A stretch of DNA of 64,000 bases, taken from contig QXJR01000009.1 of the NCBI GenBank assembly GCA_020975725.1, positions 1 through 64,000 of the forward strand, read 5' to 3'. This stretch comes from Picocystis sp. L7. Its lineage: Eukaryota > Chlorophyta > Picocystophyceae > Picocystales > Picocystaceae. Position 1 is the first letter of the stretch, and each line of letters begins with the position of its first letter. Positions 22,076 to 56,135 of the stretch are shown here, piece after piece. The position numbers and the translations under genes are program-made. The notes beneath the pieces were generated by a model. The model made no database searches. It saw nothing but the letters and a program-made list of their open reading frames with translations, and was not told where the DNA came from.

Positions 22076-25000
22076 CCAACTGCAATGGAATCCAGTACCA
22101 CGTCGGATGTGGTAGGAATGATCAGCTCCAATGCCCGCAGTGTGGTTCCCATGCCAGCACAGAGATCGAGGATACAAAGGACGTTTGCATCCCTTACTTT
22201 TGCGGAGTGCCGTGACAAACAGTCCGGGCCGATGTTTTCTGATCCAGGCCTGTATTCAATCGTAAAGGGTGCAAAGTACGCAAGCATTTCGATCCAGCGC
22301 ATTTCTCGTGGCGATAGCTGTTCGGTAGCTTTGCTCCCCAAGAACTGGCTCGCTTTGTTGTCCGTTAGTACGGTGAACTGCTGACCAAAGAGGAGATGCC
22401 GCCAATGCTGAAGTGCGTACAGTATGGTACACGTCTCCTTCTCAGCAGGGTGATAATTCTGCTGAGCGGTGTTTAATTTCTTCGACCAGTATTCTACGGG
22501 GCGCCAATCACCATTGCAAACCTGTTGCATGAGGGCAGCACCCATGCCTATGTCGGAGGCGTCTGTTTCGACGCGAATGGATCGATCTTCATCGAAAAGA
22601 GCCAGAATTGGTGCGGACGTGAGAGCTTTGACCATGTTACGGAAAGCTTCTTCTTGGGGCTGTTTCTAGTATGAAGTGAAGGCATGCTTCAGCGATGCTT
22701 GATTTAATTCAGTAAGCGGTGCAGCGAGCTCAGCATAATGGGGCACAAAGCGCATGTAAAACTGGCACAGTCCCAGAAAGGCCGTGTTTTCTCGCTGGGT
22801 CTGCAGGCGTGCAAAGTGCTGGATCTTAGACACCAGGTGGGTTGTACAAGCCAACTGACCGTCGCGAATTCGAAAGCCAACCCATTCCAAAGTGCTTCTG
22901 AAGAAGTGGCATTTGGATCGTTTGAGGCGGATATCGGCTTGTTCACAGGTTGCAAAGAACTCTTCCAGGTGTTGGAAGTGTTCATGTCTCGTTTCCGAGT
23001 GAACGAGGATATCGTCCATGTACACCTTCAGAAACAGGAGGTGTCCAAACACTCTATTCATCATGCGCTGGAACATTGCCGGGGCATTGGCTGCTCCCAT
23101 GGGCATGACTTTCCATACGTACGATCCGAATGGAGTTACCACAGCAGTTTTGTCGATGTCCGCTGGGTCCACGCGAATCTGGTGAAACCCGTCCAACGCA
23201 TCCAAAGAGGAAAAATACTTTGCTCCGCGCAGGCTCTGCAAGTAATCATCAATACGGGGCAGAGGGTATCTATCCTTAATCGTGACGCTGTTGAGCAAAC
23301 GGTAGTCGAATACTACCCTCCAGCCACCGTCTTTCTTCGGTACCAGAATGACAGGAGCTCCCCAACTGGATCCTGCACACAAATTCATCTTTCCGGTGTC
23401 CACATATTCAGCAATCAGCTCCTTCAGGGCTGCCTGTTGATGTGGACACAACCTGTAGTAATTCCTGTACTGCGGGGTCGCCCCCTCTACCAACTGTATT
23501 TTAAAGGCTTCTCCACGTACACGCTCCGGTGGGGTTCGACACGTGATGCAAACAATTGCTTGTATCGTACATTCAGGAGATCGTCCAGACGTGCCTGGTC
23601 TGTTTCGTCCAATGGACATTCATCGCTGACTTGACTTCGCATGTGGGTCAAGTAAGTCTCTTCCTCAACTAGTTCTTTGCTTGCATCCAGTGGTTGCATC
23701 ATCAGCAATAGACAGCCAAGATGTTTGACTGCTTGTCGGGCCTCGCTTCGAGGCACAATCAGATCCAGTTTGCGAGAAGCGATGAACTGCTCATCGCTGT
23801 AGACAGTATGTTTTGTGCTGTTGCTATCGCGCAGGATCATCCGATGTTGGGGCCAGTCTAAGGCCTCCAGGTGCTGGTGGCAAAAGTTTGCCCCCAATAT
23901 GCAGTCAAAGGTTTCTAACGGAGCCACTCCGAACTCGATGCTAGTTTGGAACCCGTCGATAGAGAATGCAGCCCTGATTACTGGGGCAGTGTGGATCTTC
24001 TGGCCTACAGCCACGCTGTAATCGTAGGACGCTGTTGTGCACTCCCATGACACCCCTTCTGGGTCGGCCTGTCGCAAACTATCGTACAAGCACTCGCTGA
24101 TGAATGAGTAGCTGTCCAGGGTGTCTAAATAAGCTTGAGTCCTAATTTTTTGTGTTTTTTTTTCCAAAGTAAGTTTCAGCAGCAAGGAACTCTCCCCTAG
24201 GTCTGTTGCTAGCAACAGAATTCAGGTTGATGCATTCCTTCAGTTTGGTAACCGGGTGGCTGCCTGTTGCGCTCCCGGTTCCGTCCCGCAAACCGAAGTA
24301 ACGAAATGGAGAGCTATCAGTTTTTTGGTGCTCCCATTACGGATGCCATTTTGCAGCCGGACTGGTCACGTCCGTAATGGCGGCATCGTTGGCACAGGGA
24401 ATGAGCTAAGCATAGGTTCTGTTACGCAAGGTCACCCTACCCCCATCGAGGGTAGCTCCCATTCAAAGGATAGACAGTAACAATTGCAGTGAATAGTGGG
24501 GAGAGGCATTCCCTTAGTAAGGACTGACCTGGCTCTGAGCCCAATACTCTCGACGGGACGGGAAGTCCCCCCAATCAAGACTGGGACTGAAGGGACCAGC
24601 TTCAGGAACCCGGGTTCACCCCCCTTACTAATTGGGAAACAGACCCGGGCTCAGTCGGGGCGAATCTCCCCCAAGTGGATCGAACGGTGGAATACCCAGG
24701 TGACCGGATAGGGTCGGCAACGACACAGCCCGAGAACCGTCCGATGGGGACGCGGGGGCCCACGTGGGCCCCCAACTACCTGTTGAGCGGATAAGGAGGG
24801 CAGTTTCCACCACTCGTTCTCCACGAGAGATCGAAAGAAGAAGGGGAGCAACCCACTTGCTAGAATAGAACTTTGCTTGAGCCAGCAACCGGCTGTCTCT
24901 TTTTTTTCGTGAGCTTGGTGCGCCATTCTTTTCGGTCGCTAACTGCTCAGGACGACCAGCAAGAAGCTCTCCTACGACCCCAACCGAGAGGAACTCCTCA

Positions 25001-26315
25001 CTTGTCAAAGAAAGCGAGAGAAGACCGGAAAGTAGGGACCCCCCAAAGGCGCTCTACGACCCTTTTTCCTCCAACGGCCGGACAAGGACAAAGTGCACAG
25101 GGAGAAAACGTGTGTGAAAAGTGTCCCTCACGGGCGCTTGGTAACAGTTCTGCTCCTCTTGGGTAAGCTTTGCTCCCCGTGCCTTGCCTCCGAGTTGTTG
25201 TTGAACTTTTGTAATGGACTGTTTCTGTTCCTCCGAGAGATCCTCAAAGCGTTTTCGCTGCCGCTTCGCTGCTGCCATTTCCTTTGACGAAGTGGGAGGC
25301 TGCGCCTGTAGGGCAACTGCCACTCCACCTGTCGGTGTTGGTCCAGCATGCTGGGTGCCATGAGCCGTGCGTGAAGACGGCTTGCGGCTAATCCACTTGC
25401 CAGCAGCATCCTTGGTTTCCCTCCCATTTCGCTCATGCATATCGCGCTCCAGCTTGAATATCACAGCAACCAAACTTCCAGGTTGCATATCTGGAACCTT
25501 GTCAACCTCAATAAGGTGATTTTGGTGCTTGTACAAAGCTCGTTGGAGGGAGTTGGTTAGGCCATGTTGTAGTCTAGCCGCGATGTCATCTTCAGTCAGC
25601 GTACGGCAAAGCGGGGAATAGCTTGCATTGACTACAAAGCTCAACTGGACCAGCCTATTGAGACACTGTATTGCATTCTCTGTTCGGCGCATCCGGGTAT
25701 TGTGGAACTCTCGCCACGCTTCCGGTCCAAGGTCATGACTCTAGAAAGTCCGCTTGAGGTACGCAAAAAGGTCATCGACTGATCGTAGCGAGTTGGCATT
25801 GCGCATGATCAAGTTCTGGACCATGCCTTTGCCGTACCCGCCAGTGTTTGGTTGATCGCTAGAACCAGTTGTTCCATGGGGCGATTGTAGGCATATGCTT
25901 GACACCAACACAACACATCGCGGTACCAGTAGGACAGCGCGTATGGGTTGTCTTCGAGTTGTGTCCCTGAGAACTTTTCTGGTCGTTCGAGCGACACTTT
26001 CCGCAAATTCTTGGAGTCCTGGAGCGCGGAACCGTAGAGGCTCGTAGGACGAGGCAGCCCGTCTTCCTCCGACGGTGTGTGAGATGGTACGGGCTGTACC
26101 TCCGATGCCGGCGGCCTGTCCTTCGCTTCCGGTGCCGTAAGGCCATCGCCTACCCTTTTCAACTCATCAGGTGATGAAGCTTGTTTGGCTTGTAAGAGCT
26201 CTAGGAACTCCGCCAGATTTTCTTCAAGTCTCTCCCTTCGAGACTTCTCCTCCTCGAAGTTCCGTTCGAAGGTTTCCCATCTTTCTTCGCGCCCTTCTTC
26301 GTCCAACGACGACAT
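22076..26315 (-). mobile_element. Truncated Ty3-type LTR retroelement fossil with start of a DNA-methyltransferase domain
   Basis: Reading on the minus strand from 26315: a gag region (25130-26315) with a charged coiled-coil start and the PEKFSGTQLEDNPYALSYWY stretch that matches the element at 38801-46186; a protease-like region (about 23900-24180); reverse transcriptase (about 22790-23400, with YMDD); RNase H (about 22240-22620); and the start of a cytosine-5 methyltransferase domain (LCILDLCAGMGTTLRAL, about 22076-22200). There the element is cut by the 4.3-kb array; integrase and the downstream LTR are absent. A G+C-rich insertion of about 0.9 kb separates gag from the protease region. 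It belongs to the same family as the 522-bp-LTR element but is older. It is broken, with several breaks besides the truncation and the insertion. Confidence 0.88.
24216..25130. repeat. LTR-like insertion inside the fossil
   Basis: Non-coding stretch between the protease-like and gag regions of the fossil. From about 24490 its theme (CTTAGTAAGG, GGGAAGTCCCCCC, CCCACGTGGGCCCCCAACTACCTGTTGAGCGG) resembles the 522-bp LTR at 38801, though diverged. It is probably a solo LTR of a related family; its exact ends and target duplication were not resolved. Confidence 0.45.
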
Positions 26316-36127: not shown

Positions 36128-36445
36128 GGTGCTCCTCTCCTCCCTCCTTCCCGCGCTTTTCACGTGGCCTTGCTACCGCCGAGGAAGGGGTCCCATCACG
36201 GCCGAGGCTACGAAGGGATTATTTTCCTCAAAGCATGTGTCCAAATCGCTCCATAATGACCGATGGAGTGTCCTCCTCGTATGGTTCCTTTTTCGCGGAC
36301 CCGCAGAGGATCCCCCAAAATAGAACCACTATTTGCGGCAAAAAAGGACCGGATTTTATTTTCCGGTCGGGAAACCCGGGTCAACGATCAAAAAATTACG
36401 TAATGCAAAACCGGAAGTTTTTTTTTGGGGGCTTGCCGAATGCCT

Positions 36446-38800: not shown

Positions 38801-39322
38801 TGTAGGCCCCACAGGCCCTATACATGAGAGGGCCCCTTCGAACCCCTCTCCAAGTTGGGTCGAGACCTGGTCCGGTCAGGACCCTTGTAGTAAGGGGACT
38901 CGCCCCTTACTAAGGGAGCTCCCCATCGAGGACTCGAACGGAACAGACCCGGATTGAAGGGTTGTGGTGTTTGGAATCCCTTCCCTCAATCCCTTCTAGA
39001 AGGTAGGGCTGGGGCAACTCAACGGTGGCGATGCGACGGACAGGCCAGGGTCGCTTGGAAACGACCCTTCGGGACCATCCAATGCATCGCCCGCCCCCCA
39101 CGTGGGCAGTTGGGGAGCCCCGCCAGGCTGTCTTCAACCGCTCAAGGGCGGTTGAGAGAGAGGTAGACCCCTAGGTCCCTCCCCTTGTCTTTTTAGTTCA
39201 CTTGCTTTCTTTCGGAAGAGCTACCGCCTTCCTAGCGCCTCCTCCACTTCGCCACCTTTAAACGACGCTCTTTTCGGTGCCTGTGAGACCCTGAGCACGT
39301 GCCACATCAGTCGGACGCTACA
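38801..39322 (+). repeat. Left LTR, 522 bp
   Basis: TGTAGGCCCCACAGGCCCTA to ACGCTACA. It contains the palindrome-like pair CAACCGCTC/GAGCGGTTG-type near 39137 and the block CCCCACGTGGGCAGTTGGGG. Confidence 0.95.
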
Positions 39323-39344
39323 TTGTCGAAGCTATCACCCACCG

Positions 39345-40642
39345 ATGAGTGATGTTGAAGAAGACGTCCCCTTGGGGACCCTCACCCGTTTTCAACGGAT
39401 GAGAGAGGAGCTCGAAAGAGAAAAAGAAGGTCGAAAAGACCTCGAAGCAAAGACTTTGCTGCTGGAAAGTGAGCTCGCACAACTTCGTTCGCTCCCCAGT
39501 GTCAAAAAAGACGATACCGGTGCCGTAGTCGTGGGCCAAGACGAAACCATGATGGAAGAAGCGATGCAAGAGGAAGACGAGCTTCAACATGAAGCTCATC
39601 AGCAAGAAGCATTCAGACAAGACGGGAAACAAGCTGAAAATCTACCCCTTGCAGTCCAACCCCTTACCGAAGAAGGGCTACACTCCCTTACCGGCATGTA
39701 TCAAGCCATGGGGGCATCGCAACGCCTACAAGGTGTAACACTTACTAAGCCAAAGTCATTTTCTGGTGCCGAACTTACCGACGACCCATATTCGCTTACT
39801 CATTGGTACCGAGAGGTCTCTTGTTGGGTTCAAGGCTATGCCTTGAGTGACACTCAACAAGTAGTGCTTGCCTTGCAAACTTTGAGCGGGACCGCAAGGA
39901 TCATGATGGATAATATCATCATGGGTGATAAGAGTCGAGTGTCGCACCTTCGAGCCCTCTATGAGTTGTTGAAAGAGACATTTCAGCGGCGTGACCCGGG
40001 CCCGGATGCATGGAAAGAATTTCAGCGCGCCCGCATGCGCCCGATCAAGGAAGACGTCGTAAAATTTTTGAACCGACTACTCTTGCTGAGCTTTGTGGTC
40101 AACATGAGCACCGATCCTACGTGCATGAAAATCAGTGAAAGCGACATCGCAACAAAACTTCGCATTGGTCTGCCCTACTCGATGAGTAACAAGATAGAGC
40201 AACATTTTCAATTACTAGTGGAATTAGGACGTTCCCCGGACATGTCCCCATGGGGGTATGTGCCGCTGCCTTGAAGGTAGAAGCCCAAGAACGGGAGCAA
40301 GCCAAAGCCGCTTCCCGCAATACAAAGCCTCCGGGGACCAGTACCGTCCGCGCCGCATCAGTTGTTACGGTGCGAGCAATGCCCAATGCAGACAATGATC
40401 CAAAAAGGGCATCCATGACTGCCTCAGGCCAAATCGCAAAAAGATTTGCTGACCTATCCAAGGAGCTTCAAGCTCGCATCGTTCGAGTGCAAACAGAGTT
40501 AAAGGACCTGCCATTGGGCGCAACCCTTACACTTGATCAGCAGAAACAATGCATCGCTAATTCATTATGTTTGCGATGCCGTCGCTATGGACATGACGCA
40601 AAACAGTGCCGTCATTCGTCCCCTATGTCTCCAAAAAACTGA
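39345..40642 (+). pseudogene. gag region of the 522-bp-LTR element
   Basis: Starts at an ATG 22 bp after the LTR. The N terminus is a charged coiled coil (REELEREKEGRKDLEAKT), then a retrotransposon gag domain (KPKSFSGAELTDDPYSLTHW and following). A zinc knuckle of CCHC type (CLRCRRYGHDAKQC) lies at its end, near 40570-40610. Gag packages the element RNA in particles. Part of a broken element. Confidence 0.85.
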
Positions 40643-40749
40643 AAGAGCTCCACCTGACAGTTGGGGCTGTCAGGATGGAGCCGGGAGAGGGACCACCAAC
40701 TGATGCAAGGAGTGGTATATGAAACAATACAAATTTATATCCAGGCCAA

Positions 40750-43700
40750 GTGGTGTCCCTCACAGCATCACCAAACCCCCGCCCTCGATGTGAATTTCTC
40801 ACAGCGAGATGTTATTTGGGAGACCCAGCAGTCCCCACCTTACAAACTCTAGCTTATGTGGATACGCTTGCCAGCAACTCATTCTTGAGCTTTCCAGCCT
40901 TTCAGGAACTTAAAAGAAAAGATCCTACCTTGCGTAATTGGAAGCCTACTGGACATTTCTTCAATTTCAGCCTGGCAGTAGGGACTGAAACACACCAGGC
41001 TGAGGTGATCGAAGTCGTGCTGACCATTGATACCTTTCAGGTCATTCACACTTTCGGAGTCGCGCCCATCGAAACCTTCAGTTGCATACTTGGCGTCGAC
41101 TTCTGCCATCAGTACCTGCAGCAACTTAATTGGCAGCAGCAGTACATGGAACTACGCGATCCAGTAGGAATTGTGCATCGAGTCCAGGGCGATGAATCAT
41201 TCATCAAGGCCCGTAAGTTAGACTTGATAGTACCCCCCTCAGAAGTGAAGGAAGCATTGCAATCAACAGAGTGCCTTTTATTAATGGTTCAGCCCCTAGA
41301 TCCCACGGTGGAAATCACAAGTGAAGAGCAGGACCTGGGCAGTTTCCGGAGCCAGCTCAGTGAAGCGTACGAACTACGCCCCAGCGAACGGGAACGCTTG
41401 GACACGCTTTTAGATCAGCACAAGTCTTGCTTCGAAAAGCGAACCTCGGTACCCAATGAAAAAGTACCTGGGGAATCATTCAGCATCAATGTAGAACCAG
41501 GTACACAACCAGTACACCGCAATTACTATCGCTTGTCCCCCCAGCAACAAGAAACTCTACGTGAATTGCTTGCTGAGTACGTTGACGCGGGGAAGATGGA
41601 CATCTGCGCTGGATCCAGCTGGGGAGCACCTGTGCTGCTTATACCAAAGAAGGATGGGGGTTGGAGAGTTGTTTTTGATTATAGGCTGCTTAATGCGGCA
41701 ACAATCAAGGACCGCTACCCATTACCCCGCATTGATGACCACCTGCAGAATTTGCAGGGGTCCCATGTGTTCTCGTCAGTAGATGCTCTGGATGGTTTCC
41801 ACCAGATACCGATGAACCCGATCGATGTAGAAAAGACTCCCGTCGTAACACCGTTTGGGAGTTATATATGGCGCGTTATGCCAATGGGGCTTGCTAATGC
41901 CCCGGCAATGTTTCAGCGCATGATGAACCTCATCTTTGGAACCTTGCCCTTTCTCAAGGTTTACATGGATGACATCCTGCTCCATTCTGTCAACCTAACA
42001 GAACATTTCGAACATCTGCAGCAATTTTTGGATATGTGCCAGCAGAATGACATTCGATTGAAACGCTCCAAGTGCTTCTTCTTTCATCGCACCCTGGAGT
42101 GGGTCGGTTTCCGTATTCGGGAAGGACAGCTAACATGTGCTGACCACCTGGTTTCACGCATCAGCCAGTTTCCAAAGCCGACAACCCATAAGCAGAACTT
42201 GGCCTTCCTAGGCCTTTGTCAGTTTTACATGCGTTTTGTGCAGAATTACTCAGATATTGCAGCTCCGCTTACGGAGCTCAGCCGTAAACAGTATAAACAT
42301 GATTTCCAACATTACTGGAAGCCTCAACATGATGCTTCATTCAATCAACTAGTACAGTTGCTGACCTCCCGACCAGTGTTACAACTATTCCATGCAGACC
42401 GCCCGATTCGCATAGAGACAGATGCCTCCGATCAAGGCATGGGAGCAGTTCTATTGCAAGACGTCTCCACTAATGAATGGAAGCCTGTGGAGTTTTGGTC
42501 CAAAAAATTCAACTCTGCGCAGAGAAACTATCATCCGGCAGAAAAAGAGACCTGCGCTATCGTTTATGCGCTGCAGCATTGGCGTCACCTACTATTTGGA
42601 CAACAGTTCACCGTCATTACCGATAACCGTGCCAGTATGTACCTGCAGAGCAAATCCTCAGAACAATTAAGCCCACGCGATCAGCGCTGGATTGCCAAAT
42701 TGTCATACTTTGCCCCGTTCGAGGTCCACTATCGTCCGGGACCAGAGAACATCACTGCAGACTACCTGTCCACGCACAGCCTTCCAAGTACGCACCCCGA
42801 TGTTAGAATACTGGATGTACGCGCAGGAACTGGCACCGTATTGCGTGCCCTTTGGCACCTCATACCCCCCGGTGCTGCATTACAAGTTGATTATATTGCC
42901 GTGGAACTCGATCCAGATGCCCGTCAGGTTATCCAGCGAGTTTTCGCAGATATCGGTCTGGACCGCCCTGGACTTTTCACACGAACGGATATCTTCCGCT
43001 ACGGGAACGACGTCCGCATGTTGACCAATCGTCATAAACTGCCTGTGGTAGACTTAGTAATCGCTGGCGTTCCTTGCCAGCCTTTCTCCAAAGCTAATAA
43101 TTCTAAGGATCATCCCAGCTATGGCCTACGAGATCACCGAGAACTGTTCACATCTGTTTATCACTTGCTGGAAAGGTTACATCATCCAAGTTATATCATC
43201 GAGTGTACCCCCTTTGCAGGGCACTTGGACGCGGACTTTCAACAAATTGCTCACATGTTTGGAGAACCATATCTACATGACCTGGCCCATTGTTGCCCAC
43301 AGAAACGCGTCCGCTACTGCTGGACCAGCCTGCCTAATCCTTCGGAATTGTTACCCTTACAGGATCTTCCTCTTACATGGCAGGATTGCTTAACATCTGA
43401 GTCCACGGTGCCCACCGACGACCTGGGACAACCCATTACAAAATGTCCCACCTTAATGGCCTCATGCAAGTCCCACAGTGATCGAAGTCGGTCCACCTGG
43501 GTCCAAAACTCTGATGGAGCATCGAGGCCGCTTCAAATTCAACAAAAGGAGCGCCTAGTTGGACTGCAGACCAACGACACCGCCGCTGCCCAGGTTTCAG
43601 AGGCCTCACGCCATCGCATGTGCGGCAATGCTTTTTCTGTAGCTTGGATTGCCAATTTACTGACTCCCTTTCTACAGAACCACACAGGGACGCTTCGACC

Positions 43701-45633
43701 GCTAGGTAGCCGCAGTCGTACATCGACTGTGTGCGTTCTTCGCAGTCCCTCGGTAATTGCAGCCACGCTTACTGATCCACAAGCTACGCCGTTCATCCAA
43801 CGCCTGCAGGACGCTGCTCAGGCAGATCCAGAATACAATGCCCTGATGCACAACCCCCCTCATAACTTGCAAGTTAGAGATGGGTTGTTGTTTGATAAGC
43901 GAGCAGCTAATTGCTTCACTTCCTATGATGGTCCAGCAGTAGTATGGGTACCTGCTGATGACGCCCTCCGACAAGACCTTCTGCACTTAGTGCATGACCA
44001 GGCTCACTTCGGGACTGAGCGCACTTATGCAGCAGCCAAACGACATTTCAGGTGGAAACATATGCACAGCCAAATCCAACACTTTGTTGCGCAATGCCCT
44101 ACATGTCAATTACAAAAGCCAGGAACCGCTTCGCGCCACCAACCGTACTTCCCCGAGACAGCGTTCTATCCTTATCCATTCCATAGTGTGGTTTTGGATG
44201 TGGTAGAAGGCCTTCCGCTTACCAGCACGGGCCACAACGGTGTGCTAACAATTGTTGATCGCTTCATGAAGTTTGCGATTTACGTTCCAATTCACACCAC
44301 CTGGAGCGCGTTTCGCCAGGCGCAATGTATCATGGATGCCCTAGTATACCGGTTCCATACTCCCCAAAGAATTCACACAGATAATGGGCCTGCGTATCGA
44401 TCGCTGTTCAAAGCTTTCTCTTCCGCGCTCGGTGTGCAGCACACTACTGGTAGCCCATACCACTCGCAATTGCAGGGGGGTGCTGAGCGTCAGCACCGAA
44501 CTTTACTACAGACCTTAAGACTAATCTGCGATGATCGCCGCAATTGGGATAACTACCTACAGGCAGCAGCCCACGCATACAATGACAGCCAGCACGCGGT
44601 CACAAAGGTCCCGCCGTTTGTTGTAGTATATGGTTGCTCCTCCAGGTTACCTTGGCACCTGCAGCTCATTCCCTTGGCAGATTCTCGGAAAACTACAATG
44701 GTTTGTTCTCCCAACAACCGTATCAATGATTTCTTGAAACATCAACAACAGGTCTACAAAGGTATTTTGCAGAATTTACTAAAACAGGCCGATGTGTTTC
44801 GCAAACTGCGTGCCAATCGTACGCCTCGCAACTTCAAACCAGGCGACCAAGTCAAGGTTCAGTATGGCCTCAAGAATCCCACAGACAAGCACAAATTGGA
44901 CCCTTATTATGTAGGACCTTTCATAATAGCAGAGGATCTGGGAAAAGGGGCTTACCGACTTAACATACCCGATAATTCTCCATATTCAAGTCGTGTCAAT
45001 GCCGATCGACTGGAGAAATGGGTGGATTCAGACCTGACAGTATTTCCAGCAGATTCTACGCATCAGCAGCATGCTCTCCTACCTCCAGACCCTCAAGTGC
45101 AACCAGTTCATCGCATCTTGCGCTACTTGTTGCGAGATTACTCCTTATTCCCATAGGACGGCGTTCGATATTGGGTGAGAACTAATTCCCCTCTGACGCC
45201 GTACATGTGGGTCACTGAAACAAGCAGTATTTTGGAGGAATTCCTTCTGCTCGAGGAAACAAATGGATGCATCCCAGAGACTGGAATCACATCAACAAAC
45301 TTCCAACAGGTCAAACAACACAAAGAATAGATTTACATGCAGTGCCCTGCACCCATCATGGTTAATACCTGGACCTCCCATCGCCTGCCATTCCAAGTTC
45401 GCAAACGCCCTGCATTTAAACCACCTGCTAACTTACTCCATGCAGTAGTGCAAGACCTCTTCCATGTCACAGATGAACAATCAGCATACTATCAAGGCAT
45501 GGTGATTGCAAAGAAGGAACAGATATACCGCGTACGTTGGACAGATGGATATGAAACGTCATACACCAAGTCCGAGATTTACCACATACTTTATGACCCC
45601 ATCAGTTACATTTATGATTTCAATCATGCTTAG
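40750..45633 (+). pseudogene. pol region: PR-RT-RH-DNMT-IN-chromo/Tudor-like
   Basis: Approximate parts: protease 40840-41130; reverse transcriptase 41590-42160 (VYMDDILLH); RNase H 42400-42760 (TDASDQGMGAVLL); methyltransferase-like domain 42800-43690; integrase 43950-44650 (zinc-binding HLVHDQAHF...CPTCQ, then Asp in LDVVEG, Asp in TDNGPAY and Glu in GGAERQH); GPY-type module 44870-45030; chromodomain-like part about 45100-45300; Tudor-like tail (YRVRWTDGYETSY) 45470-45600. In the methyltransferase part, LDVRAGTGTVLRAL fits motif I, AGVPCQPFSKAN motif IV, IECTPF motif VI, QKRVRYCW motif VIII and HRMCGNAFSVAW motif X. Part of a broken element; its break sites are not detailed. Confidence 0.92.
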
Positions 45634-45664
45634 GGTGTGTCAGTAGTGACAGGAACTAGGAGAA

Positions 45665-46186
45665 TGTAGGCCCCACAGGCCCTATGCATGAGAGGGCCCC
45701 TTCGAACCCCTCTCCAAGTTGGGTCGAGACCTGGTCCGGTCAGGACCCTTGTAGTAAGGGGACTCGCCCCTTACTAAGGGAGCTCCCCATCGAGGACTCG
45801 AACGGAACAGACCCGGATTGAAGGGTTGTGGTGTTTGGAATCCCTTCCCTCAATCCCTTCTAGAAGGTAGGGCTGGGGCAACTCAACGGTGGCGATGCGA
45901 CGGACAGGCCAGGGTCGCTTGGAAACGACCCTTCGGGACCATCCAATGCATCGCCCGCCCCCCACGTGGGCAGTTGGGGAGCCCCGCCAGGCTGTCTTCA
46001 ACCGCTCAAGGGCGGTTGAGAGAGAGGTAGACCCCTAGGTCCCTCCCCTTGTCTTTTTAGTTCACTTGCTTTCTTTCGGAAGAGCTACCGCCTTCCCAGC
46101 GCCTCCTCCACTTCGCCACCTTCAAACGACGCTCTTTTCGGTGCCGGTGAGACCCTGAGCACGTGCCACATCAGTCGGACGCTACA
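45665..46186 (+). repeat. Right LTR, 522 bp
   Basis: Same length as the left LTR, with about four substitutions and no gaps. Confidence 0.95.
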
Positions 46187-47781: not shown

Positions 47782-48237
47782 ATGGCGCAGCGGTGGAAGC
47801 AGCGCCGGCAACGGCCGCTCGATCCGCTCATCGGAGCTCGTGTTCGTGTTCTAGCGTCCGAGTTTGGTGAAGAATAGGCTCGTGAAGCCCGTGGGAGGCG
47901 TGGAGCGACACGTGGTACGATGGTGTGGTGCTCCCCCTCATACGTTTACATATATTAGAGTAGGAGGCCATCGTTCGTTGGCTCATGTCGGGCACCTCCA
48001 CGAGGGAGTGGCCGCTCACCGAGGAAACAGTGCACCGTTACAGGGTTGTGGAGCCACCACCGAAAGAGGAACCCTAGCGTGCGGCCACAAAGGAAGAAAG
48101 ACCCACCGGAACGGATCCTAGTGGGGACGACGAGTTGGTACCTCCACCGACGAAGGTACCATCGAAGGAGGCCTTCCCCGACGTCCATGAGTGTGCAACG
48201 CTCCAAGAGGAAGGGGTGGACCCGCTTGGAGATGGCG
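47782..48237 (+). pseudogene. Possible 5' part of a decayed piggyBac-like gene, split by an LTR element
   Basis: An ATG at 47782 opens MAQRWKQRRQRPLDPLIGAR and continues to VRVLASEFGEE before a stop at 47875. Further fragments in other frames are basic (HRKRNPSVRPQRKKDPPERI). The sequence ends at GGAGATGGCG, the target site of the LTR element, and continues after it at 55643. The N-terminal 'GARVRV..' style fits transposase-derived genes with a small barrel domain at the start, but this is weak. It is decayed by stops and frameshifts. Confidence 0.3.
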
Positions 48238-48461
48238 TGTTAGGAGGGAGGCTCCTTGCTCTTGAACTCCGTCGGTACGGAGGAAGTTGCCTCGGAGGTT
48301 GAGGAGGCGCTTGGGAGGCGGCTCTACCTTCGAGGTCAAGATCAACTTAATTACAAGGTGTGAGAGAGAGAGGTTAAGTACTCCTCTCCATAGGGGAGTA
48401 ACTATCCATTGAAGGGGTTCAATGGGTGAGGAATCAAGGGGGGATGCCCAGGTTCCTAACA
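48238..48461 (-). repeat. Downstream LTR of the young element, 224 bp
   Basis: Ends are an 8-bp inverted pair, TGTTAGGA and TCCTAACA. Same sequence as 55419-55642. Confidence 0.95.
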
Positions 48462-48562
48462 CTCCCCAGCCCCAACACCGGCGTCCTCGACGGTTCTTGT
48501 ACACTAAACAAATAGGTGGTAGGAGAAAACCTGCCCTCAGGTCAAAAACTCCTGCTGAAAAT

Positions 48563-51500
48563 TTAATCTATCCTAGCGGAGGCTCGATAAAGGAGCCTGT
48601 CCAATTCTTGATGTGTGACAGCTTCTTCGTATCCGTCGGTGTAACGGATGGTGTATCGTCCAGTAGCCGTTTTGGGGGTGGCGACGACCTGTCCAGCGTA
48701 ATACATCAGTAGTCCCTGTTCCTCAAAGCGTTTCTGCACTATTCTCTGCAGATTAGCTGTAGGCAATGTTTGCAAACCTGGAAGTTTCACGGTGGACGCA
48801 CGTCCAATAGCTGCTGCCCATGGAGCTTTGCCAGTCCACGTGTTCTGAACGATGGGTGATTTTTGCTGAAATTTGACGCGTTTGTGCCTGAGAACTGCAG
48901 CCTTGTTGGCAGCAGTGATACCAATTTCTGGCAGGATTCCATTCACCTTTTCATAGACAGCGACGTCGCTGATCAGCGCATCGTCTTCATATGCCCACCC
49001 CAATTCTTTGGCAGGGGTATCCCATTGAACATAGTATCTGGGTGGCACTGAGTTCCAGTTGCGCAGGAGGTACTTTCTGACAGGGTATTTCTGCGCTAGG
49101 TCGGTTGGTTGCGGTGACGTATCTGGCGGTAGCACTGCCGGTCCAGGTTGCTGAGCCAACGGAAACTTTGTAGGGTCTGCTGTCCAAAACTTTTCCAGTT
49201 TGTCAGCATGCACGACGGGGTGTATGCTGCTGCCCTCCGGCAAGCGGATCTCATAATTATTCTTGCCCAGAGAGCGGACAATTTCGGTAACCCGGAAGCG
49301 TGGCTGTAATTTATGCTGATCACTGCGTGTCGCACGTCCTCCCTGCAGCTTAGCAATTTCTCCGTTTGCAAATGTTTTACTGGTTCGCGTACGGTTACTG
49401 AAATACTGCATGCGTTCCTCAGCCTTGGCGAGATTGATCGCCATAAGACGATATATCGTCCTGCTGTATTTGCACAATTCAGCTACATGCTTGTCGATTG
49501 TAAGGTTGCTGGGTCCGGGCAGCAAATAGAAGGGCATGGTTGGATGGCGACCCAACTCTGCCTGAAAAGGGGTGACCCCTGTTGTTGCTCGCACAGTGTT
49601 GTTGGTCGCCAATTCTGAGATGTGCAGGCATCGATACCAATCGTCATCAGCACTGAAAGTATCTATCAGCGCGACCCGCAGTTGGTCTGCTAGTGTTGCG
49701 ATTTGACGTTCCGTCTGACCATCGGATTGCTGATGGTAAGCAGTTGTAAGCATGGCCGTGACACCCAAGGTCTCCATGAAATCGCGCCAGTACGCGCTGG
49801 TGAATTTTGTGTCTCGGTCCATGATCAAGTTGCTGGGGCATCCGCGTTTAGCGACCCAGTGACGCTCAAACTGAAAGGCTAATTCGGGCGCAGTGATGCT
49901 GGTGATGATAGGAATGTAGACGGTGTATTTGGTAAACCGATCTACGACAACCAGAACTGCATTGTAACTGTGACTGGGCGGCAATCCCATTGCGATGTCC
50001 AGTGTTACCCAGCGGTTTGGGTACGACCCATGGTCTGTAGGATGGAGAATGGTCTTGCTGCGCTGCCGGCTGATTTTGCCCAGTTGGCAAGCATAACATT
50101 GTTTGCAGTAGGATTTGACGTCCTCGTGCATTCCAGGCCAGTAATATTGTCGCTTTAGCAGTTCAGTGGTTTTATGAACTCCTGGGTGACCTGCGTACGG
50201 CAAATCATGAGTGGTCATCAGGATGAGGTTCTTAACTGTGCGGTTGTTAGGAACATACAACCGTTTCTGCCCCTTGCTGACCTTATACATGATTCCATCT
50301 TGTTTCTGCAGAGTATCTGTCTCCTGAAGTTTCTGATAATCTGCGTCCATCGACGCCGCTTTCGCAAGTAGCGCATCCAATTGGCTAATCTTACCAATGT
50401 CGACCGCTGTGAGTACTGATTGCAGAGGTTGCAAAGTAGTATTCTCAGCTTGGTAAAAAGGACTATCCTGTGCCCCGGGTGAGGGAAGAGGATAGCATGC
50501 TGCTGCTTGTACATCATCGTTGTCGACGGTGTTGATCCAGATACGAATGATGGAGTTTATCCAGGAGACAGGGAACGCGTTGCCGAGCATACGGTTCCTG
50601 GTGGATTTATCCAACCCAGGAGCTGCTGTGTCTCCTGGCTGGAGCCCAACTAATAATTCTCGTTCTTCGGGAGCCATCTGCCTGGTGATAGTGGTACCCT
50701 GTTGTTGAATCAAAGACTGACCATTTCTGACATTATGGGTGTTGTCCCAGTTGGCCATCAGCGTGGGCGCTTTTTCGGACGGCGCTGTCCAATCTGATTG
50801 AAGACAGGCCTGCCAAGTAAGCGGCTGGACAATTTCCTTTGACAGCGGCTTCATATTTTCAGTGTCGAGATTACTCCAAAGCAGCCTCGTGCGCTGCTGT
50901 GCTGACCACTGACTTAAGTCATGCTGGATAGGTTGCCCCAACCATTGCTGCACCACTTCCAGATCTTTTTGCAAGTGCTGGGCAAATGGAGTGCACTCAA
51001 CTGCATAAAAGGTAGCTCGGCTGTGCATAAGTACTTTATGCACAACTTGAAACAGCGAGCGGTCATCCTGCAATCCCTTTCCAGCAGGATTCGCTCTACT
51101 GAAAGGTTGGCATGGCACCCTTGCTATGATGAGGTCCACTGCAGGCAGTTTCCTGTTTACCAGGTCCTTAACGTCATGACCCAGGCGGAATATGTCCTTG
51201 CGTAGAAAGAGACCTGGACGGTCGCGCTGAACTAAACTGAAGATTCTCTGAATAACAGTGCGACAATCTGCATTGTTTTCAACTGCAATATAATTGATGC
51301 GAACATGGTTTGGTACTGCATGGACCAGGCTGCGGATTACTGTTCCTGTCCCTGCACATAAATCGAGCACAGTGAGGTGAAGCGCAGAACGTCCGCGGCT
51401 CAGCGCATCGGGCGGCAAATTGAATTTTCCAGGCTTGTACACTATGGTGAGCTGGAAATCGGCGAGCCGGGGTAACCACGATAACTCGCGCTGCTGAAGC

Positions 51501-54184
51501 TTTGCTGGCTGCTTGTTCAGATAATGCACCAGTGCCTGATGGTCGGTGCGAACAACGATCGGGATACCCAACAAGTAATGCCGCCATGTCTGCAATGCTA
51601 GGACAATAGCTAGCATTTCCAGTTCAGTGGTAGTGTAGTTTTTCTGCGCACCCTGGAGCGACTTACTCCAATAAGCCACTGGGTGCCAACCACTGCTGTG
51701 TTGTTGGAGCAACACAGCTCCCAGGCGAACATTAGATGCATCGGTGTGAAGTTCAGTTGGGTATCCTGGAGTCCAGAGCCTAAGAACAGGTTCCGAAGTT
51801 AATGCTAACTTCAACTCAACAAACGACGATTCTGCTTGCTCATCCCAACGAGCGGCCAAAGGTTCGGTCGTCCTAGTTAGTTCGTAAAGCGGAGCCGCCT
51901 TTTCCTGGAAGCGAGAAATGAATTTTCTGTAATAACCTGCCAGCCCCAAGAAAGATCGCAACTGCGTTGGCGTCCTGGGTTGGGGAAATTCTCTCACCGC
52001 CCCTATCAGTCTGGGGTCCGGGCGTAACTGTCCCTCCCCAATTACATGCCCCAGGTATGTAAGGTGAGTCTGAAACCAGGTGCTTTTTTGCATATTCAGT
52101 CGGAACCGGTACCGATCGCAAATCTGAAGCACCTCCTCAAGTGTGTCTAACATGACCTGGAAACTGTCCGCGTAGATCAGCAGGTCGTCGAGGTAGCAAG
52201 CGACTGTGCGCTTGTCATATATGAGGTGATGAAATCTGGCATCCATCATACGCTGGAATGTAGCAACAGCGTTGCACATTCCCATAACCAACACCAGCCA
52301 TTCAAATAGACCAAAATGAGTGATGGTGCCAGTGTACCTCACACTGTCCGGATGCATGCGTATGTTGTAATAGGCTTCTTTCAGGTCTAGGCTTATGAAG
52401 AAGCGAGCCTGACTTAATCGGTCCAGCAGTTCCTCAATGAGAGGTAGAGGGAAATGATCCTTAACTGTAACATCGTTTAACGCTCGAAAGTCCACGACGT
52501 CACGATCAGGTCCATCCTTACGTTTAACCATGAAAACTGCAGATCTGCAGGTCTCGCTGTCGCTGGCTGCCCGTTGGATAATCCCACGCTTGCATCGATG
52601 TTCAAATCGCTTCTGTAACTCAATAGTTTGGTCAGCGGCCAAGCGTATCGGTCGGGTTTGTACTCGCTGTGACCCTCCCTCCGTGAGGACGATACGATGG
52701 TCGAATTCCGATGGCGGTGGCGGTGGTTCATCGTCACCTGGTGGTTGCATGAGGTGCAAATATTTGAGCAGCAGGTGTCTTAATTGCTGCTGCTGTATTG
52801 CGTCCAGCGACTCGGGCAGTTGTAGTCCCTCGACGGCCTCCCGAGTGACTGTTGGACGGTTCACCTGGATCGCTCCTAGCGTCGTTACCTCTGTAGTGCT
52901 GTTGCGATTGATCTGCAAAGCTACCATTTCACCGGCAGGGGTACTGTGTCCATAAGTTTCTATCTGTTGCATATAAGCCCTGTCTGCTGATGGAACCACC
53001 CTACCCTTTTGCACCAGGGGCTGTAGTTCCCTGAACCATGGACTGCGGGGTAGATACGGTGTCAACAAGACCAGGTCCATAGGTGTCGAAGCTCGTAATT
53101 TCTGCGTAACCTGGGGCAGTAGTCTTAACGGCGGAACGCAGAGTATCGGTCCAGGCAGTTCTGTCCAGTTTTGTCCCAAAGCCTCAACAGGCTCCTCATA
53201 ATTGAGTGTTGCCAGCCCCGCTGTTGCCGAGACAAACAGGGTGGTACTGAATGGCCCAAACTCCTCTTCCAAAGTGCTATAAGAAGTTGGGTGCTGAGCA
53301 GTCAGCTCTGCAGTCGTTACACTTACTGATGACAGACCGTTGACGGAGGTCGTCTCTACTGTCTTGTGTTTGTCCATGACCAGGGTTACGATCCGTCCGC
53401 GATGTCTCAACTGAATGGTGTTTCGCTCGATGTCCAGCGAAGCCTGAAGTTGTTTCATAACATCACAACCCAGGATCATATCAAAGTTCTTTGGTAGATC
53501 CATAGGTATTACTTTTATATTTATCTGAATCTGTTTTTCCAACGGCAGATCAAACGGACCAAGAGAAACTGAAATCTGCAAAAGTTCGTTGGACGTGTGC
53601 GCCTGGCCGTTGGCGAACACGCTTCGCACAAAGTGCGCTTTGCTGGCAATGGTACCTAAAGCACTGAATTCTTTGTGAATATAGGAGCACCCTGCACCGG
53701 TGTCCCACAATGTTCTCAACTCTGTACCTTCAACATAGGAAGGCCTGATAAAGGCCAACCCTCCAGATTGTGCCAAATTCACCACAATCCGTGGACAAGA
53801 GGATGCTGGTGGGTTCTCCCCAGCCCTAATTGTCAAATCACTCAACTCAAACGCGGACCGCTCCCTCGCATAGTCCACGTGGTAATTACTGATATCTGAA
53901 ACTGTTTCATCGGAACGTGCGCCATGCACGGTTGCATTAAGGGGTATATCTTCAGCCCAATTTCCAGTTTCCTCAAAGAAGTGAGACCCAGCAGGACTCA
54001 CCTGGATGGTGGAGGCAGGAACACGATCCTTGCCCTCACACTTGCTCAAAGGGGAATCTGTTTCTATGCCCGCCGGGGTATCCCGTTGCCGGGGGCCTGG
54101 CCGTTTCCCGTATCCGAACTCTTTCCCTTGTTGGGACAGTTGTTCGCAACATGATCGGGGCTTAAGCAACGGAAGATAAGGCAC
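48563..54184 (-). CDS. pol polyprotein: PR-RT-RH-DNMT-IN-chromo/Tudor-like (about 1870 aa)
   Basis: One open frame. Parts by residue: protease, LWDTGAGCSYI at about 159-169; reverse transcriptase about 550-740 with CYLDDLLIY; RNase H from about 810 (TDASNVRLGAVLL); methyltransferase-like domain about 933-1223; integrase with its HHCC finger and DDE core about 1310-1530; GPY-type end about 1620; chromodomain-like YYVQWDTPAKELGWAYEDDA about 1700; Tudor-like tail YTIRYTDGYEEAVTHQEL near 1855. The methyltransferase part shows VLDLCAGTGTVIRSL (motif I), IIARVPCQPFSRAN (IV), AVECTPF (VI), QQRTRLLW (VIII) and RNRMLGNAFPVSW (X). The frame overlaps gag by about 120 bp in another phase; Ty3-type elements commonly reach pol by ribosomal frameshifting. 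The protease would be expected to release the parts. Confidence 0.95.
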   Translation of the reverse strand: MPYLPLLKPRSCCEQLSQQGKEFGYGKRPGPRQRDTPAGIETDSPLSKCEGKDRVPASTIQVSPAGSHFFEETGNWAEDIPLNATVHGARSDETVSDISNYHVDYARERSAFELSDLTIRAGENPPASSCPRIVVNLAQSGGLAFIRPSYVEGTELRTLWDTGAGCSYIHKEFSALGTIASKAHFVRSVFANGQAHTSNELLQISVSLGPFDLPLEKQIQINIKVIPMDLPKNFDMILGCDVMKQLQASLDIERNTIQLRHRGRIVTLVMDKHKTVETTSVNGLSSVSVTTAELTAQHPTSYSTLEEEFGPFSTTLFVSATAGLATLNYEEPVEALGQNWTELPGPILCVPPLRLLPQVTQKLRASTPMDLVLLTPYLPRSPWFRELQPLVQKGRVVPSADRAYMQQIETYGHSTPAGEMVALQINRNSTTEVTTLGAIQVNRPTVTREAVEGLQLPESLDAIQQQQLRHLLLKYLHLMQPPGDDEPPPPPSEFDHRIVLTEGGSQRVQTRPIRLAADQTIELQKRFEHRCKRGIIQRAASDSETCRSAVFMVKRKDGPDRDVVDFRALNDVTVKDHFPLPLIEELLDRLSQARFFISLDLKEAYYNIRMHPDSVRYTGTITHFGLFEWLVLVMGMCNAVATFQRMMDARFHHLIYDKRTVACYLDDLLIYADSFQVMLDTLEEVLQICDRYRFRLNMQKSTWFQTHLTYLGHVIGEGQLRPDPRLIGAVREFPQPRTPTQLRSFLGLAGYYRKFISRFQEKAAPLYELTRTTEPLAARWDEQAESSFVELKLALTSEPVLRLWTPGYPTELHTDASNVRLGAVLLQQHSSGWHPVAYWSKSLQGAQKNYTTTELEMLAIVLALQTWRHYLLGIPIVVRTDHQALVHYLNKQPAKLQQRELSWLPRLADFQLTIVYKPGKFNLPPDALSRGRSALHLTVLDLCAGTGTVIRSLVHAVPNHVRINYIAVENNADCRTVIQRIFSLVQRDRPGLFLRKDIFRLGHDVKDLVNRKLPAVDLIIARVPCQPFSRANPAGKGLQDDRSLFQVVHKVLMHSRATFYAVECTPFAQHLQKDLEVVQQWLGQPIQHDLSQWSAQQRTRLLWSNLDTENMKPLSKEIVQPLTWQACLQSDWTAPSEKAPTLMANWDNTHNVRNGQSLIQQQGTTITRQMAPEERELLVGLQPGDTAAPGLDKSTRNRMLGNAFPVSWINSIIRIWINTVDNDDVQAAACYPLPSPGAQDSPFYQAENTTLQPLQSVLTAVDIGKISQLDALLAKAASMDADYQKLQETDTLQKQDGIMYKVSKGQKRLYVPNNRTVKNLILMTTHDLPYAGHPGVHKTTELLKRQYYWPGMHEDVKSYCKQCYACQLGKISRQRSKTILHPTDHGSYPNRWVTLDIAMGLPPSHSYNAVLVVVDRFTKYTVYIPIITSITAPELAFQFERHWVAKRGCPSNLIMDRDTKFTSAYWRDFMETLGVTAMLTTAYHQQSDGQTERQIATLADQLRVALIDTFSADDDWYRCLHISELATNNTVRATTGVTPFQAELGRHPTMPFYLLPGPSNLTIDKHVAELCKYSRTIYRLMAINLAKAEERMQYFSNRTRTSKTFANGEIAKLQGGRATRSDQHKLQPRFRVTEIVRSLGKNNYEIRLPEGSSIHPVVHADKLEKFWTADPTKFPLAQQPGPAVLPPDTSPQPTDLAQKYPVRKYLLRNWNSVPPRYYVQWDTPAKELGWAYEDDALISDVAVYEKVNGILPEIGITAANKAAVLRHKRVKFQQKSPIVQNTWTGKAPWAAAIGRASTVKLPGLQTLPTANLQRIVQKRFEEQGLLMYYAGQVVATPKTATGRYTIRYTDGYEEAVTHQELDRLLYRASARID

Positions 54185-55134
54185 AATCCCAACTGCTTAC
54201 ACCGCTCGATCGCCTTTGTCGTTGGTTTTTTTCCTTTCCATTCAGCCTGGAACTTTTCTTGTTCGTCCGTGAGACGGTGCGACAACGCCGGCACAGCCGC
54301 TACCATCGACGGTCGCTCCATTTTCTGGGGGACGGCTTTCGCTTTACGCAGTTGACGCTGATCGTCGCGTTCCCGCGCTTCCTTTTCGCGCGCGTAGCGC
54401 TCCTCACAATACTCCAAAAGCTCCAACCACTCCTCCGTAGTTTCCAACGGCCGCTCATTTCCATCGAGCTTGTCCACCTCCAACTTCGCACGAAGTTGGT
54501 CACGGATTCCAATCCATACGCTACTGCGCAACTTCAATAACACCATCTCCTCACTCACATGGGGAATGAGTTTACCATCTCCCAAATTCACCTTCCTTTG
54601 TAGCTCCTCAAGGTGTAGTAGGAAGTGGCGGACCGTCATGTCCCGCTTTTGGTAAGCCCTCTCGAATTCTTTATATGCGGCCTCGGATGAAGGACGGATA
54701 CGGTGAAGCTGAACCAATAATGTTTTGAATGCTCCCAAATCTAGGGCGAGTGTCCCCTTCTCATAAAGAGAATCGAGGACGGCGCACTTGGGTCCTTGGA
54801 TCATGTCAAGGAGGTCCACCACGCACTCCGATTCCTCCAAATCCGGTTGGCGGGCCTTGCGCCTTCCAAACCACCTTGTAACACTACCCCACCAAGCCTC
54901 AAAAGCCTCGGACAACGCGTCTTCCCCCATGTTATGGGAGGAAAAGCCCTTGGGCCGCACGATCGTCTCCATGGGTCCACGAGGGATGGACGGCATCGTA
55001 ATGGCTTGAGTGGAAGTTCCATCTTGAACGGAAGAAGATGGATTACTTCTTAACTTCTCCAACTCTTCACCTTGTTGGATGAGTTGTACTTTCAATGCCT
55101 CCAACTCTTCTTTCAATTCTTCCATCCTTGTCAT
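54064..55134 (-). CDS. gag protein of the young element, 356 aa
   Basis: ATG at 55134. N-terminal coiled coil (MEELKEELEALKVQLIQQGEELEKL, given in part: residues about 4-28). Then a retrotransposon gag domain of the type with conserved Trp and the segment RPSSEAAYKEFERAYQKRDM. A CCHC zinc knuckle (CLSPDHVANNC core) and a basic Gly-rich end follow. It would form the particle and bind element RNA. The frame is open throughout. Confidence 0.9.
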   Translation of the reverse strand: MTRMEELKEELEALKVQLIQQGEELEKLRSNPSSSVQDGTSTQAITMPSIPRGPMETIVRPKGFSSHNMGEDALSEAFEAWWGSVTRWFGRRKARQPDLEESECVVDLLDMIQGPKCAVLDSLYEKGTLALDLGAFKTLLVQLHRIRPSSEAAYKEFERAYQKRDMTVRHFLLHLEELQRKVNLGDGKLIPHVSEEMVLLKLRSSVWIGIRDQLRAKLEVDKLDGNERPLETTEEWLELLEYCEERYAREKEARERDDQRQLRKAKAVPQKMERPSMVAAVPALSHRLTDEQEKFQAEWKGKKPTTKAIERCKQLGLCLIFRCLSPDHVANNCPNKGKSSDTGNGQAPGNGIPRRA

Positions 55135-55418
55135 TCTCTCTTTTTTTTCTACCAGTCAAATTCTATCTTTTGACACAGACCGTTCCAGAACAGGCTCTTT
55201 ATATCATTCGACGCGTCTTTTGACACACTTTCGAATGACACCTCAAACGTTCAATTTGAGCCAGTAGCGGCAAAGTTATGCCCCAATGAAATTTCCACGA
55301 AACCCTAGGTGACCGGACGTGACGCAACAACCACGGACGCGTCCGCAAAGCTTAAAACGCACGCGTACGTTCTCTCTTCGTGCGTGGTAGTCCTTTTTAC
55401 TGTTAGAGTCCTTTTTAC

Positions 55419-55642
55419 TGTTAGGAGGGAGGCTCCTTGCTCTTGAACTCCGTCGGTACGGAGGAAGTTGCCTCGGAGGTTGAGGAGGCGCTTGGGAGGC
55501 GGCTCTACCTTCGAGGTCAAGATCAACTTAATTACAAGGTGTGAGAGAGAGAGGTTAAGTACTCCTCTCCATAGGGGAGTAACTATCCATTGAAGGGGTT
55601 CAATGGGTGAGGAATCAAGGGGGGATGCCCAGGTTCCTAACA
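55419..55642 (-). repeat. Upstream LTR of the young element, 224 bp
   Basis: Upstream in the element's own reading direction. Directly inside it on the minus strand is a short duplication of GTAAAAAGGACTCTAACA-like sequence at the usual place of the primer-binding site. Confidence 0.95.
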
Positions 55643-56135
55643 TGGCGTAAACGCCAACGAAACAAGTAGGAATGATTTTGGACTGGTGTGGGAGGAGGAA
55701 GAGGCACACGTGATGGTGGGCTCGCGCGTTGCCAAAGGCATCATGCATAGGCACCAAGGCCATGCCTTCCCTTCTTCGTACATGCTCGAGCTTTCCCATG
55801 AGACAAAAGTGCTGCAATACTTCCTACGCTTCTTCCTCTATGAGTTGTTGCCAGATTGGGCCTGTGAAACCACCAGGCTTGGGCGCAGCAAACACAACAA
55901 AACAGGTGACACTTCCTTATCTTATGACCGAGAGTGCTTACCTAGTATGTTGTGGAGGGTGTTTCGGTGCTTTATGTTCGTGTTGTTGTACCCTGGTCAA
56001 AGCAGAAAGTCCTTCTCGCAGGTCATCAATGTGGACGAAGATCCACTGGCCTAAAGTTTTGCTTAAGTAAGTACCTCGGCAGGAGGGACTTCGATCGCAT
56101 CTTGGAATTTTTCGGAGATAGTGCGCCAAGGTAAA
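55643..56135 (+). pseudogene. Decayed piggyBac-like transposase fragment
   Basis: Frames on the plus strand carry YFLRFFLYELLPDWACETTR (about 55820-55880), like the FF..ELL..I..ETNRYA start of the piggyBac transposase domain, and KYLGRRDFDRILEFFGDSAP (about 56070-56130), like its MSRNRFEEILRFLHF block. They lie in the expected order but in different frames with stops, so the gene is dead or contains introns. Together with 47782-48237 it is probably one former gene interrupted by the young LTR element. Confidence 0.4.

Follow-up and report, generated by a model that had tools for sequence, protein, structure and literature searches.

A Ty3/gypsy LTR retrotransposon of Picocystis sp. L7, referred to here as E1, carries between the RNase H and integrase domains of its Pol a module that sequence comparison confirms as a C5 cytosine methyltransferase of Dnmt3-like kind. 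Our preferred reading, to which we assign a probability of roughly one half, is that the enzyme is made within E1 Gag-Pol, is packaged and methylates the element's own cDNA, and that the module has been exchanged between gypsy lineages. Transposons are usually silenced by DNA methylation, so that elements keeping a methyltransferase of their own pose a puzzle.

Structure of the Element and Its Relatives

E1 is 7405 bp in length and lies on the minus strand of the window, by which we mean the whole stretch of 64,000 nucleotides that was analyzed; coordinates are collected in Table 1. Both of its LTRs start with TG and end with CA. Direct TG..CA LTRs and a short target duplication, found in E1 and also in a second element, E2, place it with Ty3/gypsy, as does the Pol order protease, reverse transcriptase (RT), RNase H, integrase, with integrase following RNase H and the protease match being weak. 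The initial annotation had described a young LTR element, and the identical 224-bp LTRs, the 5-bp target duplication and the uninterrupted gag and pol frames bear this out: the insertion is recent. Identical LTRs, target duplication and open frames also rule out that E1 is a chimera. No Pfam match was obtained for E1 gag, and a TGG-type primer-binding start, sought by eye after the 5' LTRs of E1 and E2, was not seen. Directly after the E1 5' LTR, at 55385-55418, there is an imperfect tandem duplication of ~18 bp containing GTAAAAAGGACT.

Table 1. Features of the three methyltransferase-bearing elements in the window
Feature	Position	Strand	Remarks
E1 5' LTR	55419..55642	-	224 bp, direct repeat, identical to 3' LTR
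E1 3' LTR	48238..48461	-	224 bp
Target-site duplication tggcg, left copy	48233..48237	.	5 bp, read from sequence
Target-site duplication tggcg, right copy	55643..55647	.	5 bp, read from sequence
E1 gag ORF	54064..55134	-	356 aa; zinc-knuckle-like CLIFRCLSPDHVANNC by eye
E1 candidate -1 slippery heptamers	54103..54127	-	gag frame, in gag/pol overlap; GGGAAAG 54127-54121, GGGAAAC 54109-54103
E1 pol	48563..54184	-	1873 aa from first GTG; -1 frame of gag; no internal stop
E1 protease region	53402..53734	-	DTGA at residue 161; RVP_2 E 0.0066, below cut-off
E1 reverse transcriptase	52040..52495	-	residues 564-715; RVT_1 7.6e-26
E1 RNase H	51455..51847	-	residues 780-910; RT_RNaseH_2 1e-32; RT_RNaseH 7.2e-31 (807-910)
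E1 Dnmt3-like C5 DNA methyltransferase	50540..51379	-	residues 936-1215; PCQ cysteine = residue 1025
E1 integrase zinc finger	50075..50242	-	residues 1315-1370; Integrase_H2C2 2.4e-20
E1 integrase core	49733..50020	-	residues 1389-1484; rve 3.6e-7, 30.8 bits, just under cut-off 32.6
E1 C-terminal Tudor-like stretch	48590..48745	-	residues 1814-1865; PTM_DIR17_Tudor 1.1e-5, 25.6 bits vs cut-off 27.2, weak
E1 polypurine-tract candidate	48462..48473	-	purine-rich tract before 3' LTR, by eye
E2 5' LTR	38801..39322	+	522 bp; 4 differences to 3' LTR; CCAC flanking both sides
E2 3' LTR	45665..46186	+	522 bp
E2 gag	39345..40642	+	ORF to 40274, then other frame to zinc knuckle; end ...PKN-stop
E2 slippery site and hairpin	40633..40681	+	AAAAAAC 40633-40639, stop codon, hairpin 40647-40681; z -4.14
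E2 pol ORF	40750..45156	+	1468 aa; in-frame TGA upstream; two TAGs before C-terminus end at 45633
E2 methyltransferase	42799..43653	+	between RNase H and integrase; 3.3e-7 in whole pol, 7.9e-9 alone
E3 truncated pol	22072..24231	-	protease region, RT, RNase H, methyltransferase motif I; frame breaks and one stop
E3 gag remnant	25462..26075	-	39-47% to E2 gag

The long pol ORF at 48563-54184 was found as initially described. Its supposed start at 54184, however, is merely the first GTG after a stop, pol being in the -1 frame of gag. In the order of Pfam matches the methyltransferase comes after RNase H and ahead of the integrase zinc finger, as had been stated; the domain that had been assigned to residues 933-1223 is present, with limits of about 936-1215. 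Within the whole ORF the Pfam family DNA_methylase matches residues 1003-1059 (E 4.5e-7, 30 bits vs a cut-off of 22), and an SH3_Tf2-1 match, below the cut-off, follows the integrase core.

The location of the methyltransferase directly before the integrase, and the weak Tudor-like match with which E1 Pol ends, would also fit an action of the enzyme at or after integration: together with the Tudor-like C-terminus it would accompany the integrase and methylate either the target site or the host chromatin next to it, silent chromatin being favored as a safe harbour. The C-terminus of E2 Pol is homologous to that of E1 (38% identity). Against this stand a Tudor match under the Pfam cut-off, an E2 counterpart with no listed Pfam match, a failed structure model of the E1 C-terminus (pLDDT 39, of no use) and a target duplication that gives no hint of site choice, and we regard methylation of the integration site as improbable.

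A tblastn search with the gag and pol of E1 and E2 (E <=1e-3) located three elements in the window, all with the methyltransferase or its start. The initial annotation had reported one such element; this holds for E1, which is one of three, E2 and E3 having gone unreported. E2 spans 38801-46186 on the plus strand, with the domain order of E1, and looks young but damaged; its gag frame breaks near 40250 (read by eye), and assembly errors are a possible source of the frame breaks and stops. A 122-nt repeat, 81% identical, lies close by E2 on either side (37347-37468 and 46597-46718). E3 shares 63% identity with E2 across 512 columns, keeps the first ~35 methyltransferase residues and ends just after motif I, its pol being cut off at a 4.3-kb tandem array. 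This array (9106-22075), which borders E3, comprises three head-to-tail copies, 99.98-100% identical, of a 4323-bp unit with 201-bp and ~33-bp subrepeats and an ORF whose SET match is just under the cut-off.

A further relative, L001, is a 4661-bp contig (PUNI01000121.1) binned in a Rhodobacteraceae MAG from soda-lake sediment, the sample being described as hypersaline (PMC6146748). It holds gag and pol of an element of the E2/E3 type, with an RT 85.2% identical to that of E3 and a methyltransferase in the same slot as in E1 (Pfam 1.1e-6). The contig is the one match to E1 pol in its MAG, and the PTPLA-like protein of the window has no match there, which is uninformative. Most likely L001 is a misbinned eukaryotic contig that contaminates a public bacterial genome bin.

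The GC content of the window is 53.0%, and 53.6% is given for Picocystis sp. ML from a saline lake (PMC6346183). Pfam searches of 30 further ORFs, out of 84 of at least 150 aa, returned host-like matches to PTPLA and FMN reductase, each covered by a single ORF, and to SET just under the cut-off; no tRNAs and no Rfam families at the gathering cut-off were found in the window. At 26933-30654 two inverted repeats of 628 nt, near-perfect with at least 1 mismatch at the outer end, are separated by 2466 nt and enclose a weak MULE match (E 0.071); this is perhaps a Mutator-like transposon. A 412-aa ORF at 34925-36163 (DDE_Tnp_4, 8.4e-15) presumably encodes a Harbinger-type transposase, and a 1314-aa ORF at 1138-5082 has no Pfam match at E <=1.

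Identity of the Methyltransferase

The motifs LDLCAG (I), PCQPFS (IV), QQRTR (VIII) and GNAF (X) are located in E1 Pol at residues 940, 1024, 1096 and 1201, and motif VI is represented by the EC at 1063-1064 within VEC. The C5 motifs I, IV (PCQ), VI (Glu), VIII and X that had been recognized from the sequence thus occur in order, not permuted. Of these, PCQ, QxRxR and the Glu of motif VI are kept in 3/3 sequences (E1, E2 and L001). The motif VI Asn is replaced by Cys, giving EC and not ENV. A chance run of motifs is ruled out, since E2 and L001 have the domain at the corresponding position of Pol and E3 retains its beginning.

Scored alone, the E1 domain (METHYLTRANSFERASE) gives 2.2e-9 in Pfam, 2.7e-9 against NCBIfam dcm (37.1 bits, below the model cut-off of 100.65) and 1.6e-11 against a DNA-methyltransferase family of PHROGs. 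Pfam returns C5 families only and PHROGs DNA-methyltransferase families, to which the L001 domain adds a single family of unknown function. Another Rossmann methyltransferase is ruled out, the next-best NCBIfam match to the E1 domain being OlsG at 2e-4, far below the cut-off; a better match to an RNA or other Rossmann methylase, the outcome that the initial annotation had named as speaking against it, appears in none of Pfam, NCBIfam and PHROGs.

Among PDB sequences the E1 domain matches DNMT3A with an E of 5.4e-7, as against about 0.01 for DRM2 and 0.2 for HhaI. The profile search that had been proposed for the domain yields a significant C5 match: with a profile of E1, E2 and L001, DNMT3B (8e-12) and DNMT3A (5e-11) come out well ahead of the other C5 enzymes, among which are 3lx6 (2.4e-4), a cytosine-specific methyltransferase that we take to be Dcm, 4onq (4.6e-4), presumably a DRM, HhaI (1.8e-3), DRM2 (0.004) and DNMT2 (0.9). 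DNMT1, CMT and DNMT5 are absent among the 51 PDB sequences listed at E <=1 with this profile. An AlphaFold2 model of the methyltransferase from the three sequences (pLDDT 69.7, pTM 0.72) is poor in the target-recognition part, and the best 50 of its 198 Foldseek matches (E <=0.001) are all DNMT3-family entries, with E of 2e-12 to 2e-10, TM of 0.48-0.56 by query and rmsd of 7.6-9. By these measures the domain is closer to DNMT3 than to DNMT1, DNMT2, DRM or bacterial C5 enzymes. It resembles the catalytic domains of DNMT3A and DNMT3B, its best profile and fold match, in the unpermuted order of motifs I, IV, VI, VIII and X and differs from them in an identity of 25-27%, in PCQPFS for PCNDLS and in EC for ENV.

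An unrooted tree of 12 sequences was calculated (human DNMT3A as the one DNMT3, DNMT1, DNMT2, HhaI, two phage, three bacterial and three retroelement sequences). The retroelement domains, human DNMT3A and the two phage enzymes are split from DNMT1, DNMT2, HhaI and the three bacterial enzymes with support of 97.6/98. The grouping of DNMT3A with the phage enzymes has support of no more than 80/75 in this tree with its one DNMT3, so that a host origin and a phage-like origin of the methyltransferase are both possible. Identities to the E1 domain are 25.4% for DNMT3A, 25.7% and 28.6% for the phage enzymes, 23.3% for DNMT2, 23.4% for HhaI and 19.2% for DNMT1. The methylases of Psychrobacillus phage Perkons and Flavobacterium phage FPSV-S27, 26-30% identical to E1 and L001, share a PCQ-FS motif IV with them; unlike the E1 domain they are free-standing genes with ENV at motif VI.

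History of the Module

In order to follow the history of the module we have compared E1, E2 and L001 domain by domain. Identities for the pairs E1-E2, E1-L001 and E2-L001 are 32.4%, 36.1% and 69.7% in RT, 31.3%, 30.7% and 70.7% in integrase, 42.4%, 44.4% and 67.3% in RNase H, and 47.8%, 50.2% and 58.6% in the methyltransferase. RT and integrase of E1 are thus far from those of E2/L001 but the methyltransferases less so, which points to a possible transfer of the module from one LTR lineage to another. In sliding windows E1-L001 equals E2-L001 (68%) over E1 residues 965-1039, the two pairs are no more than 8 points apart over residues 1015-1142, and over the last third (residues 1115-1194) E2-L001 stands at 64-68% vs 34-36% for E1-L001. 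In a test that ignores invariant columns, those uniting E2 and L001 were set against the average for the other pairings. Their excess is 10.3-fold for RT (95% bootstrap range 6.7-18.2), 10.7-fold for integrase (7.0-19.6) and 4.8-fold for RNase H, and for the methyltransferase it is 2.7-fold (1.8-4.1); the methyltransferase range has no overlap with those of RT and integrase, and the RNase H range overlaps all. Inside the methyltransferase the ratio is 1.9 in the first part and 4.3 in the last, where E2 and L001 are again closer, so that rate heterogeneity could explain part of the pattern. On the evidence of these three sequences, two distantly related gypsy lineages have probably exchanged the module, perhaps no more than the first two thirds of the domain; a common donor or a rate shift could leave the same pattern.

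E1 is the outgroup in the methyltransferase tree too, as in the other domains, and since this topology is unchanged the contrast among the three sequences is one of depth. The same topology in every domain is what a single capture before the split of E1 from E2/L001 would give, the shallower methyltransferase distance then reflecting stronger constraint on its core, and the shared domain order, the homologous C-termini and a last third of the methyltransferase that behaves more like RT all favor such co-inheritance. Between E2 and L001, however, the methyltransferase is less constrained than RT (58.6% vs 69.7% identity), with pN/pS values of 0.41 and 0.24, respectively, so that it is the faster to change, and the column-pattern test, with invariant columns ignored, still differs about fourfold. 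This faster change, like the behaviour of the last third, also weighs against exchange. The 285 methyltransferase codons are open in both elements and keep this identity despite saturated synonymous sites (pS 0.79), which speaks for constraint on the enzyme; in dN/dS comparisons such saturation holds for every pair except one short one. We consider co-inheritance possible though unlikely.

Methyltransferases closer than RT and integrase would be expected as well if both gypsy lineages had captured related enzymes independently from one donor, be it a host gene, a phage or another virus, without exchange, and the tree does place two phage Dnmt3-like enzymes beside DNMT3A. Independent capture has to contend with the identical slot in both lineages, with a single retroelement clade (100/100) and with the ECTPFA at motif VI common to E1, E2 and L001, where the other nine tree sequences have ENV. 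Nor did 50,697 phage and 72,556 plasmid records contain a closer relative at the thresholds used: 7 phage records were matched with the E1 domain and 3 with the L001 domain, at an identity of at most 34%, and no plasmid record was matched with the L001 domain, the one used there. Four scans of viral contigs gave no relative. One scan of genome contigs gave 5 loci, L001 as the same kind of element and L002-L005 as short matches in bacterial MAGs; methyltransferase genes of three of the latter are in the tree, L005 being left out. We give two separate captures a low probability and retain exchange of the module between lineages as the preferred reading.

Expression and Proposed Function

The sequence downstream of the two candidate heptamers of E1 folds no better than its shuffles (z +0.70 and +0.99), for which reason the evidence from them is weak. 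In E2, E3 and L001 gag ends in CCA AAA AAC TGA, in which A AAA AAC has the frame needed for -1 slippage. The hairpins that follow are better than 200/200 shuffles in E2 (z -4.14) and L001 (z -3.75), and that of E3, folded without shuffles, has -17.3 kcal/mol. The A AAA AAC heptamer occurs 10 times in the window vs 12.5 expected, neither rarer nor commoner than chance, and the evidence for slippage is its position and frame, not its frequency. An ATG overlaps the gag stop of L001, so that re-initiation is possible in this element.

The LTRs, the target duplication, the domain order and the catalytic motifs, as well as the presence of the module in E2 and L001 and of its beginning in E3, can be read directly from the DNA, and onto these we place the following scheme. 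Frameshifting by -1, which RT and integrase also require, would bring the methyltransferase into the virus-like particle, and if the enzyme is made within Gag-Pol, the element's own cDNA would be the first DNA that it meets. There it would act on cytosines, probably in CpG, of the new double-stranded cDNA before or during integration, and new copies would arrive pre-marked by methylation. Likely gains would be that new copies are taken for self DNA where the genome is methylated, or that harmful expression is damped. Exchange of the module may have proceeded by template switching between co-packaged RNAs. Methylation of cDNA has been proposed for their own elements by the authors of a 2018 study (PMC5890265). 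CpG is mildly depleted in E1 (0.81) and E2 (0.76) vs 0.95 and 0.98 in two neighbouring stretches; a gypsy-free tile is equally low (0.74), so that the depletion is not specific. Counting against cDNA methylation are the EC in place of ENV at motif VI, the poorly modelled target-recognition part and an E1 frameshift site that shows no unusual structure.

Relation to Known Elements

The initial annotation had pointed to captured methyltransferases in LTR elements of a charophyte and of dinoflagellates, and this precedent is published (PMC5890265). KnitGypsy-Dnmt3, an LTR Gypsy element of Klebsormidium nitens, has a Dnmt3 domain within its Pol ORF, with Ka/Ks below 0.2 (de Mendoza et al. 2018, PMC5890265) and, as described there, resembles E1 in its non-rearranged Dnmt3-type domain, intronless ORF and conserved key residues. 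Compared by description only, it differs in a DIRS-like repeat arrangement (Fig. 4c legend), E1 and E2 having plain direct LTRs and E1 a 5-bp duplication. SymbioDIRS-Dnmt3 likewise has a Dnmt3 domain in Pol, in one ORF with RT; it is a DIRS element with a tyrosine recombinase, whereas E1 and E2 are Ty3/gypsy with a DDE (rve) integrase. Pol Dnmt3 domains of the Symbiodinium DIRS elements methylated CpG in yeast, where the domain from K. nitens produced no methylation, a result that the authors call inconclusive (PMC5890265). Such insertions are termed previously reported in a 2025 paper (PMC12344493), where the passage concerned names LTR Copia and DIRS, not Gypsy. A 2-ODD m6A demethylase is carried by Gypsy elements of orchids, as described in PMC9289625, which like E1 have captured a nucleic-acid-modification enzyme; unlike in E1 it is an RNA demethylase in an additional ORF. 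As far as the account in PMC9998398 goes, DNMT3 is not reported in MMETSP green algae and is reported in red algae, diatoms and dinoflagellates. Among titles and abstract openings, with most subscription journals outside, no further C5 methyltransferase in an LTR element was found.

DNMT capture by LTR elements is therefore already published; in the present case the LTRs are conventional, the slot is defined, and the module is common to two lineages. The broader picture that we entertain, with considerable doubt, is of a mobile Dnmt3-like cassette of phage- or bacterium-like origin that is fixed in one place, after RNase H and before integrase, and travels among distantly related gypsy lineages. 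Its host would add a eukaryotic lineage, possibly chlorophyte (e.g. Picocystis, from a group without reported DNMT3), to the dinoflagellates and charophytes. A young copy with open frames, a second lineage and an environmental relative together make it testable whether methylation of its own cDNA helps an element and whether a methyltransferase spreads between elements as a module.
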